A program made the position numbers and the translations under genes. A stretch of 48,327 bases of DNA, taken from assembly GCA_018650645.1 (NCBI GenBank), contig JABIFP010000006.1, positions 1 to 48,327 on the forward strand. The letters run 5' to 3'. Numbering within the stretch: the first letter of the stretch is position 1; each line of letters starts with the position of its first letter. The notes under the pieces were generated by a model, which was given only the letters and a program-made list of their open reading frames with translations, had not been told where the DNA came from and did no database searches. Below, piece by piece: positions 37,163-42,756 of this stretch. Origin of the DNA: Candidatus Magasanikiibacteriota bacterium. GTDB lineage: Bacteria > Patescibacteriota > Patescibacteriia > Magasanikbacterales > UBA922.

Positions 37163-37243
37163 AACACACTCATACAGCAAGCCGCACCCAGCGGCTACTC
37201 TGACGCCAGTCAGAAGGGGGAGCTGTGTGGGTGTTTTATTTTT
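37163..37243 (+). terminator. Multi-branched terminator of cassette 8
   Basis: The outer arms, AACAC with GTGTT and ACAGC with GCTGT, enclose two inner hairpins: GCCGC/GCGGC (37181-37195) and CTGAC/GTCAG (37200-37213). A T-rich tract (37234-37243) runs into the radA stop codon on the other strand. Confidence 0.82.
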
Positions 37244-38570
37244 CTCGCAATTCTCTCAAATGCTTCACATCCTTCACCGCAATTCCTTTTGGAATAGTTT
37301 TTCCTGCGCGAGTGATCACTCGTTTCATACCAAGCGCAGCACATTCTTTTATACGTTTTTCAACAAATCGAACAGACCGAATTTCTCCGCCTAATCCAAT
37401 TTCTCCAAATACCGCTAAATCGTCTCCAACAGATTTGTCTTTAAATGCACTTGCAATAGCAAACGCTACGGCAAGGTCGGCTGCGGGTTCGCTTGCTCGT
37501 ATGCCGCCCACAACATTTACATGTACATCATAGGTAGATAAATCGATTCCTGCTCGGCGTCCAAGTACCGCAATAAGGACATGCAATCTATTAATATCAA
37601 ATCCACTCGCTTTTCTCACAGGGAACCCAAACGCAGTTCTAGAAACCAGCGCTTGAATTTCTACCAGAAGTGGTCGTGTTCCTTCCATTAAACAAGTTAC
37701 TACTGATCCACTTGCAGATTCTGCTCGTTCACTTAACAATGCTTCTGACGGATTAAGTACTTGCGTAAGCCCCGTTTCTGTCATCTCAAACATCCCAAGT
37801 TCATCAGTAGAACCAAATCGATTTTTTACTGCGCGTAACATGCGGAGTTGATGATACCGGTCTCCTTCTAAATACAGGACCGTATCTACTAAATGTTCTA
37901 GTGTACGTGGGCCGGCAACATTTCCTTCTTTTGTGACATGGCCAATAAGGACAATCACTGTGCCAGACTTTTTTGCTGCTTGAAGTAATTTTGATGTGCA
38001 GGCTTTGAGCTGGGTAAGTGATCCTGGTGGGCCATCTACATCTACAGAGCGAATTGTTTGCACTGAATCTACAATAGCAAGCGGTGGTTTTTGATCTACA
38101 ATAGTTTTTACAATTTGCTCAACTACAACATCATTACTGAGGCCAAGCGTATCAGAAGAAGATGTGAGTCTGTCAGCGCGCAGCGTAATCTGCCCAACAG
38201 ATTCTTCTCCGGAAAAATAAACGGAATGTGGCAGTAAATTTGCTATTTGCAGTGAAAGGGTCGATTTCCCAATTCCCGGCTCACCACCGAGCAAAATGAA
38301 GCTTCCAGGCACAAATCCACCGCCAATGACGCGGTCTAATTCGCTTAGTGCTGTTGGAATACGTTTTGCGTCTGCGCGTTCTACTGAAGAGAGCTGCTGA
38401 ATTGCTGCTGCTGGTACGGCTTTTGCATGGTCAGAAGACGGAGGAGCAAGATCAAGCGCCTCTTTATTAATAGAACTCCACTTTCCACATTCCTGACAGC
38501 GACCAGTCCATTTACTATATTGCGCACCGCAATGGCTGCAGGAAAATACCTGTGAGACTTTCTTACTCAT
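37236..38570 (-). CDS. radA: DNA repair protein RadA (Sms)
   Basis: 444 residues from the ATG at 38570. An N-terminal Cys4 zinc finger (Cys11, Cys14, Cys25, Cys28), a RecA-like ATPase with Walker A GGEPGIGKST (95-104), the RadA-specific KNRFG motif (in VKNRFGSTDELG) and a Lon-like C-terminal domain. RadA is a hexameric helicase that extends recombination intermediates and is important in natural transformation. It is the last gene of the clpC operon, ten bases after the fused pilin-SLT-SGNH gene. Confidence 0.95.
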   Translation of the reverse strand: MSKKVSQVFSCSHCGAQYSKWTGRCQECGKWSSINKEALDLAPPSSDHAKAVPAAAIQQLSSVERADAKRIPTALSELDRVIGGGFVPGSFILLGGEPGIGKSTLSLQIANLLPHSVYFSGEESVGQITLRADRLTSSSDTLGLSNDVVVEQIVKTIVDQKPPLAIVDSVQTIRSVDVDGPPGSLTQLKACTSKLLQAAKKSGTVIVLIGHVTKEGNVAGPRTLEHLVDTVLYLEGDRYHQLRMLRAVKNRFGSTDELGMFEMTETGLTQVLNPSEALLSERAESASGSVVTCLMEGTRPLLVEIQALVSRTAFGFPVRKASGFDINRLHVLIAVLGRRAGIDLSTYDVHVNVVGGIRASEPAADLAVAFAIASAFKDKSVGDDLAVFGEIGLGGEIRSVRFVEKRIKECAALGMKRVITRAGKTIPKGIAVKDVKHLRELREK

Positions 38571-38580
38571 ATCAATCAGA

Positions 38581-40350
38581 TTAATTGTACGCTGCCTTTG
38601 CAATCATGTCTCCCAAAATTGATTGTCCGTTTGCGTTTAAATGAATTTTATCATCAGGATTAGCACAACTCGATTTTAACACATCTGGATCCATAGTATC
38701 GCCAAACTTTGCGTAGGCATCAATAAAGATATTGTTTCCGGCGAGTTTTCCCTCTGCCCCTGCGCGCATCCAGGCGTTTACTTCGTTGGTAGCTCTTTGG
38801 TACTGCTCAGAGAGAAGCCCTGATCCGGTGTGTGCGCCATATCCTTTCCAAGGGGTTACAGATACCGCAATAATGCGCACACCATCTTGCGTTGCTTTGT
38901 CATAAATTTTTGTGAGCCCAGCTTTTGCTCCGGTAATGTTATTTACTCCTGCCCAGACAATAATGTCGTCATACCGTTCTCCGCCTGCGCCAAGATTTTT
39001 ATTTTTGATTTGATTAAAGAGATAATTTGCATTTTCACCAAATTTAGCTTCTTTTACAATAGTAATTCCAGGGCACTTTTGTTTGAGGGCGTCAGCATAC
39101 GATTTGGCAGAATCAGTATTAGAATCACCAAGTGCCAATACTTTTTTTCCAGCTGACCGTGGGCATGAATATGTCATGACTGGGTCGCAAGTGTTTTTGA
39201 ATAGTCGTTCCTTTGTATTAATGGGGCACTTGTCTGCTTTTAGTGCGCCAGAAGGGAAGAGTGGAGCGTTTGCTTGCACACCTAGTCCTTTTAATATTGA
39301 GACCACTTTATCTCTGCCGTAATCATGTTTTTTTAGTCCGTATTGTGTTGTGACCTTTCCATTTCTTCCTCCTCGGCTTACATAAAAATTTTGTACGGCA
39401 TTCCTGATTGCAGGCTGATTGCAGGCTTTATCGCGAATGGCTTCATTCATAACAGCTGGTCCGTTGTTGTGACCCACATATAAAAGAGTAAGCGCGTGTT
39501 CAATTGTGATATTGGGACAAGCCTTTTGAATACGCTTTAGGTTTCTATTGATTGTTCCGGCCGCTGATGCTGTGTTGGTTTCTGGTTCAATTCTATTGGT
39601 ACAATCAAACCCGAGCTCTGCGGGCATCTTCCCGTCTTTTAGTCCACCTGCACAGTACGCCAGACTCATTTGAAACAGTCCATGATATTGACTGCCGGGT
39701 CTACGCGCGTTTGGATTGAGTCCACTTTCTGCAGCCGCAACGGCTTTTAAAATACGCCAATCATATCCAAAACAGCCCGCATATGTTTGGAACAGCTCGT
39801 CCATTTGTTCATTAGAAAGGTTGAAGCTGGTTAAAAAGACAGTGTTTTTATCAAATTCAAGTTCGTCTAATTCAAGCGGATCAATATATTTAATTTTCAG
39901 ATCCTTCATGACCACTAAATCCGGATTAATCGTAAACAAAATGGTGTATGAGCCGACTGCCAAAATAAGCCCGATAAAGGCATTTGCAATGATCTTTTTT
40001 GCTTGGCCGGTTTGTGTTGGATTGCCACCGCTCATGGAATAAACAACACCACCTACAATAACCATGACAACACTAATAATAGAAACAATAACAACGCTGT
40101 ACTGATATACTGCGCCAATATATTCCCCAAGGAATGGAACAATCATGTATTTATCGAGCCCCTCATCGATAAGCTTGGGCTCTTCCGAAAATTCCAATCC
40201 TGGAATAGAGATTTGTACTGTTGGTGAACCTGCATCTTTAACCAATTCACTAGTAATTGGTTGTGCACTGATTGCTAAAGCTGGTGACGCAAAAAGAAGC
40301 AGCGTTAGTACGCAGCAAACAAGAGAAAGTCGTTTGATTAGGGTATGCAT
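38581..40350 (-). CDS. Fused envelope protein: signal peptide, VirB2-like helices, SLT transglycosylase, SGNH esterase
   Basis: 589 residues with four parts. Residues 1-26 are a signal peptide ending in ALA. Two hydrophobic helices (about 84-104 and 119-141) separated by SMSGGNPTQTGQAKK match the VirB2/TrbC pilin layout common in Patescibacteria. An SLT lysozyme-like domain (about 190-335) has AAAESGLNP with the catalytic Glu208 and the GLFQM motif at 224-228. A C-terminal SGNH domain (402-589) has GDSN with Ser410, GVNN (block III, 468-471) and DKIH with Asp567 and His570. Cys residues near 375-426 may form disulfides, and a DsbA-like gene lies one base upstream. Probably cuts and de-esterifies peptidoglycan. 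Confidence 0.88.
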   Translation of the reverse strand: MHTLIKRLSLVCCVLTLLLFASPALAISAQPITSELVKDAGSPTVQISIPGLEFSEEPKLIDEGLDKYMIVPFLGEYIGAVYQYSVVIVSIISVVMVIVGGVVYSMSGGNPTQTGQAKKIIANAFIGLILAVGSYTILFTINPDLVVMKDLKIKYIDPLELDELEFDKNTVFLTSFNLSNEQMDELFQTYAGCFGYDWRILKAVAAAESGLNPNARRPGSQYHGLFQMSLAYCAGGLKDGKMPAELGFDCTNRIEPETNTASAAGTINRNLKRIQKACPNITIEHALTLLYVGHNNGPAVMNEAIRDKACNQPAIRNAVQNFYVSRGGRNGKVTTQYGLKKHDYGRDKVVSILKGLGVQANAPLFPSGALKADKCPINTKERLFKNTCDPVMTYSCPRSAGKKVLALGDSNTDSAKSYADALKQKCPGITIVKEAKFGENANYLFNQIKNKNLGAGGERYDDIIVWAGVNNITGAKAGLTKIYDKATQDGVRIIAVSVTPWKGYGAHTGSGLLSEQYQRATNEVNAWMRAGAEGKLAGNNIFIDAYAKFGDTMDPDVLKSSCANPDDKIHLNANGQSILGDMIAKAAYN

Positions 40351-40351
40351 A

Positions 40352-40999
40352 TTAGTTCAGGAGGCCTAAGAATTGCTCCCATTCTTGCACTGTGCTAAGC
40401 GATTGCACCTGTTGCCCATCTACAAATATGGCCGGTACGGCTTGAATGCCGAGTGAACGAGCGATTGCCTCATTCTTTTTCAGATATAATTCAGGTTCTT
40501 CTGTGCCTGCACAACGTTCCAGCTTAGGAGTATTCAAGTCTGCGTCATTAATTATTTGCTCAAGCACAAACGGCGTTAATTGCTGATAATTAGCAAAGGC
40601 GAGGGATTTAAATTCTTCAAACTTTCTTTGTCTGTTAGCACAAAAACTTAAGGTATGTGCTGGGCGGGTATCGTGTGGAAATCTTGTCACAGTTAAACTT
40701 TTCCAGATAATTTTTACTTGTTTTGGATACGCCGCAGTTAATTCTGAAAACGTTTGGTCTACCTCAGCACAGTGAGAGCAGCCTAAATCTTCAAATGCTA
40801 TGATAGTGATAGGTGCTTTTTTATTACCAATAATAGGGTCGTCAGCTAAAATGGGAATAGTAAGCGCTCCTTGCTGTGTGTTTATATCGGCTCGGTCATT
40901 TGACCCATTCTGAAATTGAACAACTCGAATAAAAATGGCAATGGCGATAATAGCAATTGCAGGAAGGAATATCAGCAACGTTTTTTTCATTTGTGTCAT
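40352..40999 (-). CDS. Membrane-anchored DsbA-like thioredoxin-fold protein
   Basis: 215 residues (Met4 is an alternative start). One N-terminal membrane helix (about 8-27) anchors a thioredoxin-fold domain outside. The active site is FEDLGCSHCAEV with Cys74 and Cys77, and the cis-Pro loop is in GIQAVPAIFVDG, as in DsbA/DSBA-like Thioredoxin_4 proteins. It probably makes or reshuffles disulfides in exported proteins; the Cys-rich fused protein encoded one base downstream is the obvious client, which is inference. Confidence 0.9.
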   Translation of the reverse strand: MTQMKKTLLIFLPAIAIIAIAIFIRVVQFQNGSNDRADINTQQGALTIPILADDPIIGNKKAPITIIAFEDLGCSHCAEVDQTFSELTAAYPKQVKIIWKSLTVTRFPHDTRPAHTLSFCANRQRKFEEFKSLAFANYQQLTPFVLEQIINDADLNTPKLERCAGTEEPELYLKKNEAIARSLGIQAVPAIFVDGQQVQSLSTVQEWEQFLGLLN

Positions 41000-41004
41000 A
41001 GCGA

Positions 41005-42231
41005 TTATAGCTCGACTTTAAAGATACCGTTTGTGACTTTGTCTGTGAGGAATAGGGTGTTTCCGTCAGGGCTCACGGTTAGTGTATCGACAACATGTGT
41101 TTCAGAAAGTGGGATTCTTGTTTTTGCTCCTGTCTGCGTATCAATTTTATACAAATCATCTGGTGTTCCTTCGGCTAATTCTGGAGCAAATCCAACGCCT
41201 GTTTCCATTTCTTGAGGAACGCCGCAATACAGGAATCGGTTATCTGCTGCAAATTGGCATTTTTCTGCCCACGTGTTGATACTGAGGGGGCGTCTGTCTG
41301 TACCAATGGAATCTCCTTGTGCATTGGTGATCCAAAGTTGTGGTTTAAATTCACTTTGAGAAGAGTAGACGCTGTAAATAAGCTTATCTCCTTTTGGAGA
41401 CCAGGTGCTTTCAAAACCGCGTCCCTCAACAACAAGTGATTTGAAATTTTCTCCATTTTTACCAACCAATAAAATTTGCTCTCGCTCTGCACCAAGTGCG
41501 GCACCTGTTCTTGAAAAACCAAGCACTTGCGTGTTGGGTGACCAATCAACCGTAACTTTATCTTGATTTTCTCCGAGCTGCTCTACCAGTGTTACTTGTT
41601 GCCCCGATGGGTCAGAAGTAATAAGCCATCGGTTTTCAGGAGAGATACCAATACTTTTTGCAGCAATTTCATTTCCGTTTGGATCAAATGAAAAACTTTC
41701 CCAATGTTTAGGCAATGTTACTTGCTTTTCTGCTTCAAAATCATAGAATAGGTTTGATCCGTCTGGATATTCTAAAATCGCTCTATCTTTACTTGCTGCC
41801 CAAGTTGCATTTTCTACATTAAAGAACACTTTTTCAGAAAGTGGCACAATGTTGCCTTCTGCATCAATCGTATAAAATCTTCCGTCTTGTTGATTGTAAA
41901 ATGAGGCATTCCCATTGTTGTCTAGCTTGAGTTCACTCACAAGGTCCGAAGTAAGCTGCGTTTCTGATGGGCCAAATAAAAATTCCTGACTGACTCGTCC
42001 GGATTCTCTTTGTACACTTGTAGGAATTTGATCTGGAGGAGTGATAACTGTTGTTCCGTCTCCGGCATCTCCAGAAGAAGGGAATTGGCCTGGTTCAGTT
42101 GGTGTTCTGTCTGATGGGAAAAAGGTTGGCTCTTCAGTTGGTGCCGCAAAAAATATACGAAAGAGTGCAAATCCAAGCACCAAAGTAAGAATGAAGAATC
42201 CGATGACGAGTAAAATGCGTTTTTTATCCAT
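41005..42231 (-). CDS. Membrane-anchored beta-propeller protein (TolB/WD40-like)
   Basis: 408 residues. One N-terminal helix (about 5-28), a Pro/Thr-rich linker (EEPTFFPSDRTPTEPGQ) and an outer domain of repeated blades with SPENRWLITSD, WSPNTQVLGFS, WSPKGDKLIYS and SPDGNTLFLTD, each like a TolB or WD40-type blade. Such domains bind proteins or glycans. Two Cys lie near residue 350. It sits nine bases after the coiled-coil membrane protein and five bases before the DsbA-like gene, and probably scaffolds the other envelope proteins of the operon. Confidence 0.82.
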   Translation of the reverse strand: MDKKRILLVIGFFILTLVLGFALFRIFFAAPTEEPTFFPSDRTPTEPGQFPSSGDAGDGTTVITPPDQIPTSVQRESGRVSQEFLFGPSETQLTSDLVSELKLDNNGNASFYNQQDGRFYTIDAEGNIVPLSEKVFFNVENATWAASKDRAILEYPDGSNLFYDFEAEKQVTLPKHWESFSFDPNGNEIAAKSIGISPENRWLITSDPSGQQVTLVEQLGENQDKVTVDWSPNTQVLGFSRTGAALGAEREQILLVGKNGENFKSLVVEGRGFESTWSPKGDKLIYSVYSSQSEFKPQLWITNAQGDSIGTDRRPLSINTWAEKCQFAADNRFLYCGVPQEMETGVGFAPELAEGTPDDLYKIDTQTGAKTRIPLSETHVVDTLTVSPDGNTLFLTDKVTNGIFKVEL

Positions 42232-42240
42232 AGGGAAGTA

Positions 42241-42756
42241 TTAGCGTTTTTTCTTGGCTTTTTTTTGTTCAGCCTTTAATTCATCTTTCAGGCGATAGTA
42301 TTCTCCAAATAAGTCCTTGAATAATGAGTAATCTGCAGCCATTGTCCATGGCACAATATTGATAAATGGAATCAAGTCGAGGAGCGCATATAGGAGCCAC
42401 TTTCCAGCTCGCTCATCAAGTATAAATGCTTTAATATCTTTGTTTTGCAAAATAAACCAAAAGACGCGAATCGTTTTGAATATTGGTGACAAAAAGAAAA
42501 CGATTTTTGTTCCAATAAGTGGAACCATTCCAACGAGCGACTCAATCAAGGTCAGTGCTATAAGTATATACCAAAAGATGGTTGGAGAGAAATGATCAAC
42601 CTTAGTTTGCAGCTCTTGAATTTTTTTCCCAGAGGATGTTTTATCTTTTTGTGCTGCCTGCTCCATTTGCGCAGCTTGCTGCTTCTGCGCATTGCGCTGC
42701 ACAGTAAGCTGGTTTGCAGCACGCTGTTTATCTTTTTGTGAATTGAGAGCAGGCAT
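42241..42756 (-). CDS. Unknown membrane protein with charged ends
   Basis: 171 residues. The N-terminal 50 residues are Gln/Ala/Lys-rich and likely coiled coil (QRNAQKQQAAQMEQAAQKD). Two or three hydrophobic segments follow (IFWYILIALTLIESLVGMVPL and about 80-150), and the C-terminus is a Lys/Glu tail ending in KKAKKKR. No family is recognised. It starts 12 bases after clpC and may be a membrane partner for ClpC or for the propeller protein. Confidence 0.78.
   Translation of the reverse strand: MPALNSQKDKQRAANQLTVQRNAQKQQAAQMEQAAQKDKTSSGKKIQELQTKVDHFSPTIFWYILIALTLIESLVGMVPLIGTKIVFFLSPIFKTIRVFWFILQNKDIKAFILDERAGKWLLYALLDLIPFINIVPWTMAADYSLFKDLFGEYYRLKDELKAEQKKAKKKR

Follow-up and report, generated by a model that had tools for sequence, protein, structure and literature searches.

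The window, i.e., the whole 48,327-nucleotide stretch of contig JABIFP010000006.1 (C4) from Candidatus Magasanikiibacteriota bacterium that was analyzed here, contains a gene of 589 codons that joins a pilin-type hairpin to domains of the SLT lytic-transglycosylase and SGNH hydrolase types in one open frame with no internal stops (38581..40350). The first-pass annotation located this gene correctly but left its strand unstated, which is minus, as for the other genes and features of this locus. One base upstream of the fusion gene lies the gene for a DsbA-like protein of thioredoxin fold (40352..40999; Thioredoxin_4, 7e-22; DSBA, 2e-10), a neighbor that is conserved by synteny. It is preceded by genes encoding a membrane-anchored propeller-like protein (41005..42231; weak SGL and PD40 Pfam matches below the cut-off) and a 171-aa membrane protein from the list of open reading frames (42241..42756; no Pfam match above the cut-off), which heads the cluster. 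Orthologs of the propeller-like gene with 36-57% identity adjoin dsbA in nearly all loci compared; no homolog of the 171-aa protein was found at related loci, and it is not generally conserved. On the other side, the fusion gene is bounded by radA (37236..38603; zinc ribbon, AAA, and Lon_C/ChlI Pfam matches; synteny), with which its end overlaps by approximately 20 bases in the listed frame; the true radA start is probably the ATG at position 38570. The gene order clpC, propeller-like gene, dsbA, one to three fusion genes, radA, and recG is preserved in nearly all loci compared, spanning dozens of genomes of Magasanikbacteria and Uhrbacteria (the latter represented by loci L101 and L108), and radA marks the downstream boundary of a variable slot. 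No genes of a type IV secretion system (T4SS) were recognized near the fusion locus; virB4 and a pilin gene array are located on other contigs.

The encoded protein begins with a hydrophobic, signal-peptide-like segment (aa 1-26, 40273..40350), supported by a hydropathy peak at aa 1-30 and a model helix at aa 2-20. It is followed by an extended pilin module (aa 43-161, 39868..40224) that is recognized by our own HMM (E 4e-43) and has as its core a match to the Pfam family T4SS_pilin PF18895 at aa 77-132 (E 1.2e-6, 28.9 bits vs. a cut-off of 26.6). Hydropathy places two membrane helices, which are separated by a loop that carries KK, at approximately aa 77-106 and 119-142, and the AlphaFold model has them at aa 72-106 and 111-141. 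The protein therefore has the profile match and the two-helix hairpin of VirB2/T4SS pilins; however, at 589 aa and with no T4SS gene recognized alongside, it is not a small subunit encoded within a T4SS or pilin cluster. Based on the positive-inside rule, the KK loop would be cytoplasmic and both enzymatic domains would be located outside, and the outward position of both hairpin ends would explain why cargo is found on either end of the pilin module in related proteins. VirB2-type pilins have both termini facing outward. Cysteine constitutes 3.5% of residues in the cargo regions vs. 0.15% in the pilin modules, and the neighboring DsbA-like protein probably aids folding of the Cys-rich cargo.

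The SLT domain occupies aa 186-308 (39427..39795) and matches Pfam family PF01464 with 29.5 bits (E 5.8e-7) against a curated cut-off of 21.3. The catalytic Glu208 together with S209, the GLFQ motif at aa 224-227, and H294 are invariant across four homologs, and the domain has conserved cysteines at positions 193, 233, 250, 278, and 310. When the SLT part was modeled on its own (pLDDT 86), the model retrieved MltE, Slt70, MltF, and other lytic transglycosylases in Foldseek searches. With the family profile, the Glu-Ser and GLFQ motifs, and the transglycosylase fold all in place, this domain, which is the only SLT domain of its genome, is a predicted lytic transglycosylase that would cleave peptidoglycan.

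The C-terminal SGNH/GDSL hydrolase domain (aa 406-576, 38623..39135) matches the Lipase_GDSL_2 family PF13472 with 30.0 bits (E 9.2e-7), just under the cut-off of 32.9, and its full-length homologs in genomes G012, G002, and G084 exceed this cut-off with 34.4, 57.0, and 66.1 bits, respectively. Residues Ser410, Gly438, Asn470, Asp567, and His570 are invariant across four homologs. Since a sequence search of the fusion protein against solved structures gave no match, predicted fold models were used. The AlphaFold model of the fusion protein, computed from a 19-row alignment of the window protein and sequences from our genome collection, has a mean pLDDT of 78; values are approximately 80-95 over the larger part of each enzymatic domain. 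It yielded 57 solved-chain matches in the PDB at E<=1e-3 by Foldseek; among the matches listed, all are of the SGNH/GDSL type apart from a few designed-scaffold entries, and they include TesA, acetyl-xylan esterases, and PatB (E 6e-6 to 4e-4). Structurally, the domain comes closest to general GDSL hydrolases and TesA, not to Ape1. The Ser, Gly, Asn, and His blocks and the fold are thus those of an SGNH/GDSL hydrolase, a superfamily that acts on many substrates. Hence, the reading of this gene as one polypeptide with three parts is borne out by Pfam domains, catalytic residues, and predicted folds: in the profile-HMM search PF18895 and PF01464 are above their cut-offs and PF13472 is so in the homologs, the four residues that had been named (Glu208, Ser410, Asp567, and His570) are as described and invariant across the four full-length proteins, and the folds correspond to the proposed enzyme classes. 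The NCBIfam matches of the fusion protein are all weak; they include pilin-like conjugal transfer proteins and a transglycosylase.

The same pilin-SLT-SGNH architecture was found elsewhere in Patescibacteria, namely in genomes G012, G002, and G084 (loci L095, L096, and L097), which comprise two Ca. Magasanikbacteria and one Patescibacteria record. A frameshift or misassembly that fused two genes, which had been named as a potential source of the unusual architecture, has a negligible probability, because full-length homologs from these three other genera have the three domains in the same order in a single intact frame and keep the catalytic residues; in others the order is permuted. For instance, the SGNH domain precedes the pilin module and SLT follows it in G016, G023, G030, and G045; G009, G015, and G034 have SGNH ahead of the pilin module together with a different or truncated cargo; and G037 has SLT-SGNH in a frame at the edge of a contig that lacks the N-terminus. 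Matches to the pilin domain are present in all 95 of the 95 genomes searched among wider kin.

The first-pass annotation considered a single fusion; its architecture stands, and what it missed is a wider, locus-conserved family whose wall-lytic cargo is exchangeable. A Pfam scan of 80 fusions identified SLT in 21 proteins, Peptidase_C39_2 in 11, GDSL in eight, Amidase_2 in seven, VanY in five, M15 types in three to four, M23 in three, and GH18 and NlpC/P60 in one each. Clustering of the C-terminal regions was performed for 81 fusions, a non-random sample selected by similarity to the pilin module of the window protein that includes members from more distant kin, not necessarily at the same locus. 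It resulted in groups of SLT (22 proteins), C39-like (11), VanY (9), Amidase_2 (7), M15 (5), and GH18 (1) types; a further two-member cluster includes an M23 protein at the Uhrbacteria locus L101. In total, 55 of the 81 C-terminal regions cluster with wall-acting or likely wall-acting types, a count in which the C39-like peptidases are not proven wall enzymes, and about a third have no identified family. At one fixed chromosomal position, then, an anchor of the pilin type is combined with differing wall-lytic enzymes. Among individual slot fusions, one at locus L073 (1710-3884, minus strand) has an Exo_endo_phos domain of nuclease/phosphatase type before the pilin module and Amidase_2 after it, and another at L075 (8044-9609, plus strand) has a GH18 chitinase/EndoS-type glycosidase domain.

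The SGNH domain is preferentially associated with SLT: eight out of 11 SGNH fusions have SLT cargo vs. 14 out of 70 others (Fisher p 0.0009, relatedness ignored). N-terminal and C-terminal SGNH domains are placed on opposite sides of a 100/100 branch and thus constitute two SGNH lineages. In the tree of SLT domains, forms with N-terminal SGNH, with C-terminal SGNH, and lacking SGNH are intermingled, and well-supported branches require at least three changes for the C-terminal and at least two for the N-terminal form. According to these trees, SGNH has undergone several gains, losses, or moves, usually in partnership with SLT, and since the forms of two lineages interleave, the SGNH-SLT pairing was probably made more than once. 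O-acetylation at C6 of MurNAc blocks lytic transglycosylases (PMC6174289), and the Neisseria esterase Ape1 forms a complex with a separate protein, the transglycosylase LtgA (PMC7083599); by analogy, the fusion would be a one-chain version of this pairing. The earlier suggestion that the esterase unblocks the substrate of its own transglycosylase gains indirect support from the SGNH enrichment with SLT and the LtgA-Ape1 precedent; the substrate need not be the cell's own wall. Alternatively, the SGNH domain could de-acylate another glycan or lipid of the host or own envelope and be paired with SLT merely through shared delivery. This would agree with the closest solved folds, which include TesA, acetyl-xylan esterases, and uncharacterized GDSL enzymes, and with SGNH cargo that is also paired with M15 (L090) and with a weak glucosaminidase match (L083); we consider it rather unlikely, given the SLT enrichment in two SGNH lineages and the presence of PatB and acetyl-sugar esterases among the fold matches.

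The genome encodes Mur ligases, a D-Ala-D-Ala carboxypeptidase, and undecaprenyl diphosphate synthase, and its own wall is therefore also a possible target of the fusion protein. PatB and OatA depend on a partner of the MBOAT or AT3 type. No match to the MBOAT/AT3 acetyltransferases of the PatA and OatA types (PF03062, PF01757) was found in the genome, which leaves room for an O-acetyltransferase of another type, and across the order SGNH fusions show no association with such acetyltransferase genes (6/12 vs. 33/74 genomes, p 0.76). O-acetylation of the own wall, considered as the reason for the SGNH domain, was rejected on these two grounds. The fusion was not classed as an own-wall Ape, which would act in a genome that O-acetylates its own peptidoglycan with a PatA or OatA partner, because neither PF03062 nor PF01757 has a match. 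If SGNH does remove O-acetyl groups, the host wall is the better guess for its target, since the genome has none of the known O-acetyltransferase families. Patescibacteria are epibionts where studied, and the tiny source bacterium is probably host-dependent.

The genome, 1.04 Mb in size and estimated to be complete, has 17 matches to T4SS_pilin, which comprise the fusion, a paralog on contig C31, two giant proteins on C18, a gene array on C5, and one weak below-cut-off match on C12. The paralog on C31 belongs to a second pair of a DsbA-like protein (257 aa) and a pilin fusion of approximately 517-520 aa (L057, 6096-8429); its pilin part is 47-49% identical to that of the window protein, its C-terminal part has no Pfam family match, and proteins of this type with 480-570 aa are present in many relatives. 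The C5 array (L055, 6203-14840, minus strand) contains approximately 12 sequence-divergent VirB2-like pilin genes and lies away from the T4SS locus. The two C18 proteins of 3277 and 754 aa (L056, 710-12825, minus strand) have an N-terminal T4SS_pilin domain followed by Ig-like Big_5 domains, the larger one additionally having TIG and VWA domains, and pilin-type hairpins thus seem also to anchor giant adhesin-like proteins. The T4SS with PrgI and a CD1110-family VirB4 is encoded on contig C28, whereas the fusion is on C4. Downstream of the PrgI gene, VirB4 is seemingly split into adjacent frames of 231 and 626 aa (L156, 4985-7564), both with TraC_F_IV pieces.

This repertoire bears on the reading in which the fusion is a minor VirB2-like subunit of a T4SS pilus and its cargo, displayed along the pilus or at its tip, would cut into the host wall upon contact. 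Its PF18895 domain is above the cut-off, the termini of VirB2-type pilins both face outward, and the genome has both the T4SS (PrgI and CD1110-family VirB4) and the array of about 12 pilin genes, systems that are essential for the epibiotic growth of Southlakia (PMC12857230). However, the locus is distant from virB4 and the array, a cargo of 450 residues on a small pilin may hinder polymerization, and pilin-type hairpins also anchor the 754- and 3277-aa giants of the same genome. Moreover, the pilin modules of the fusions, which have their own conserved flanks, are split from the array and giant-protein pilin domains by a 100/100 branch in a tree based on a short alignment with array pilins from three genomes; the origin of the fusions as array pilins with acquired domains was rejected on this tree, in which, within that short alignment and those three genomes' arrays, the modules form a clade of their own. 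The separate clade, the distance from virB4, and the cargo size favor an anchor over entry into a pilus, and we regard the pilus subunit as improbable; the homology and the pilin array that is essential in a Saccharibacterium (PMC12857230; PMC10633639) keep it open. Still broader, the proposal that Magasanikbacteria use a pilus or pilus-like T4SS that displays interchangeable wall cutters on VirB2-type subunits and breaches the O-acetylated wall of the host, with cargo depending on the host, is quite improbable as a whole.

Another possibility is that the fusion acts on its own cell as a substitute for VirB1, opening the wall for the T4SS or other surface machines, while the pilin module only localizes it to the T4SS. 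The genome has a T4SS and peptidoglycan precursor genes, and the fusion provides its only SLT domain. Gram-positive VirB1 homologs are membrane-anchored multidomain enzymes (PMC12857230), and most VirB2-bearing Patescibacteria are without a recognized VirB1, according to one study (PMC12102498), in which VirB2 pilus formation in Patescibacteria was concluded to need no VirB1. We find such a role doubtful, as the negative search for AT3 and MBOAT genes would leave the esterase without a known substrate in its own cell, the locus is not linked to the T4SS, and many bond specificities in one slot better suit varied host walls. The fusion would work like a membrane-anchored VirB1, yet it is not classed as one, since the T4SS is encoded on C28 and the SLT protein on C4.

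The computed architecture, catalytic residues, folds, synteny, and cargo exchange are probably best explained by an extracytoplasmic, membrane-tethered wall enzyme with two activities, a member of an exchangeable-cargo family that opens the wall locally and whose esterase target is likelier the host. After export, the VirB2-like hairpin (aa 77-142) would tether the protein to the cytoplasmic membrane, with the two ends facing outward. The SLT domain would cut the glycan strands of peptidoglycan, and the SGNH domain would strip acyl groups, most likely O-acetyl groups of that glycan, which would otherwise prevent SLT from carrying out its 1,6-anhydro reaction. The likely job of such an enzyme would be local wall opening at contact or secretion sites. 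An anchor with swappable wall cutters at one chromosomal spot suggests a purpose-built, exchangeable cell-wall-opening device.

The domain composition places the fusion tentatively among membrane-anchored, VirB1-like wall hydrolases. It shares SLT-type wall cutting with VirB1, PrgK, TraG of pIP501, and Orf14 of Tn916, of which the Gram-positive ones are likewise membrane-anchored and multidomain (PMC12857230); unlike them, it has a VirB2-like hairpin anchor, an SGNH domain, and a gene outside the T4SS cluster. Its two-helix domain is homologous to the VirB2-like pilins and arrays of Patescibacteria (PF18895; PMC12102498); however, array pilins are small and form a separate clade, whereas the fusions bear large enzymatic cargo. 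The available part of the same paper describes pilin arrays, as well as VirB1 proteins that have additional wall domains, and does not mention a pilin-hydrolase fusion. LtgA-Ape1 of Neisseria is similar in that a transglycosylase cooperates with an SGNH de-O-acetylase (PMC7083599), although these are two proteins acting on the own O-acetylated wall, and the fusion is one polypeptide from a genome without known O-acetyltransferases. The SGNH fold and the Ser-Gly-Asn-His/Asp set are shared with Ape1-, PatB-, and OatA-type enzymes, with PatB among the fold matches; in contrast to the PatB and OatA setting, no MBOAT or AT3 partner was found in the genome. Digestion of the host wall has been proposed for the secreted peptidoglycan hydrolases of the predatory Patescibacterium Vampirococcus lugosii, for which, unlike the fusion, the available part of the source describes no pilin-type anchor (PMC8080830). 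All single domains are known; among open-license papers we found no description of pilin-hydrolase fusions, and neither a pilin anchor whose cargo is exchanged within one conserved locus nor the pair of transglycosylase and esterase that it carries seems to have been described.

These observations bear on two open questions, namely how host-dependent Patescibacteria pass the host wall and why VirB1 is apparently absent from their T4SS: the wall-opening function that seems to be lacking may reside in an enzyme fused to a module of the pilin type. They also provide a naturally occurring single chain in which an esterase is paired with a transglycosylase that this esterase may unblock, and predict that the type of cargo tracks the wall chemistry of the host.
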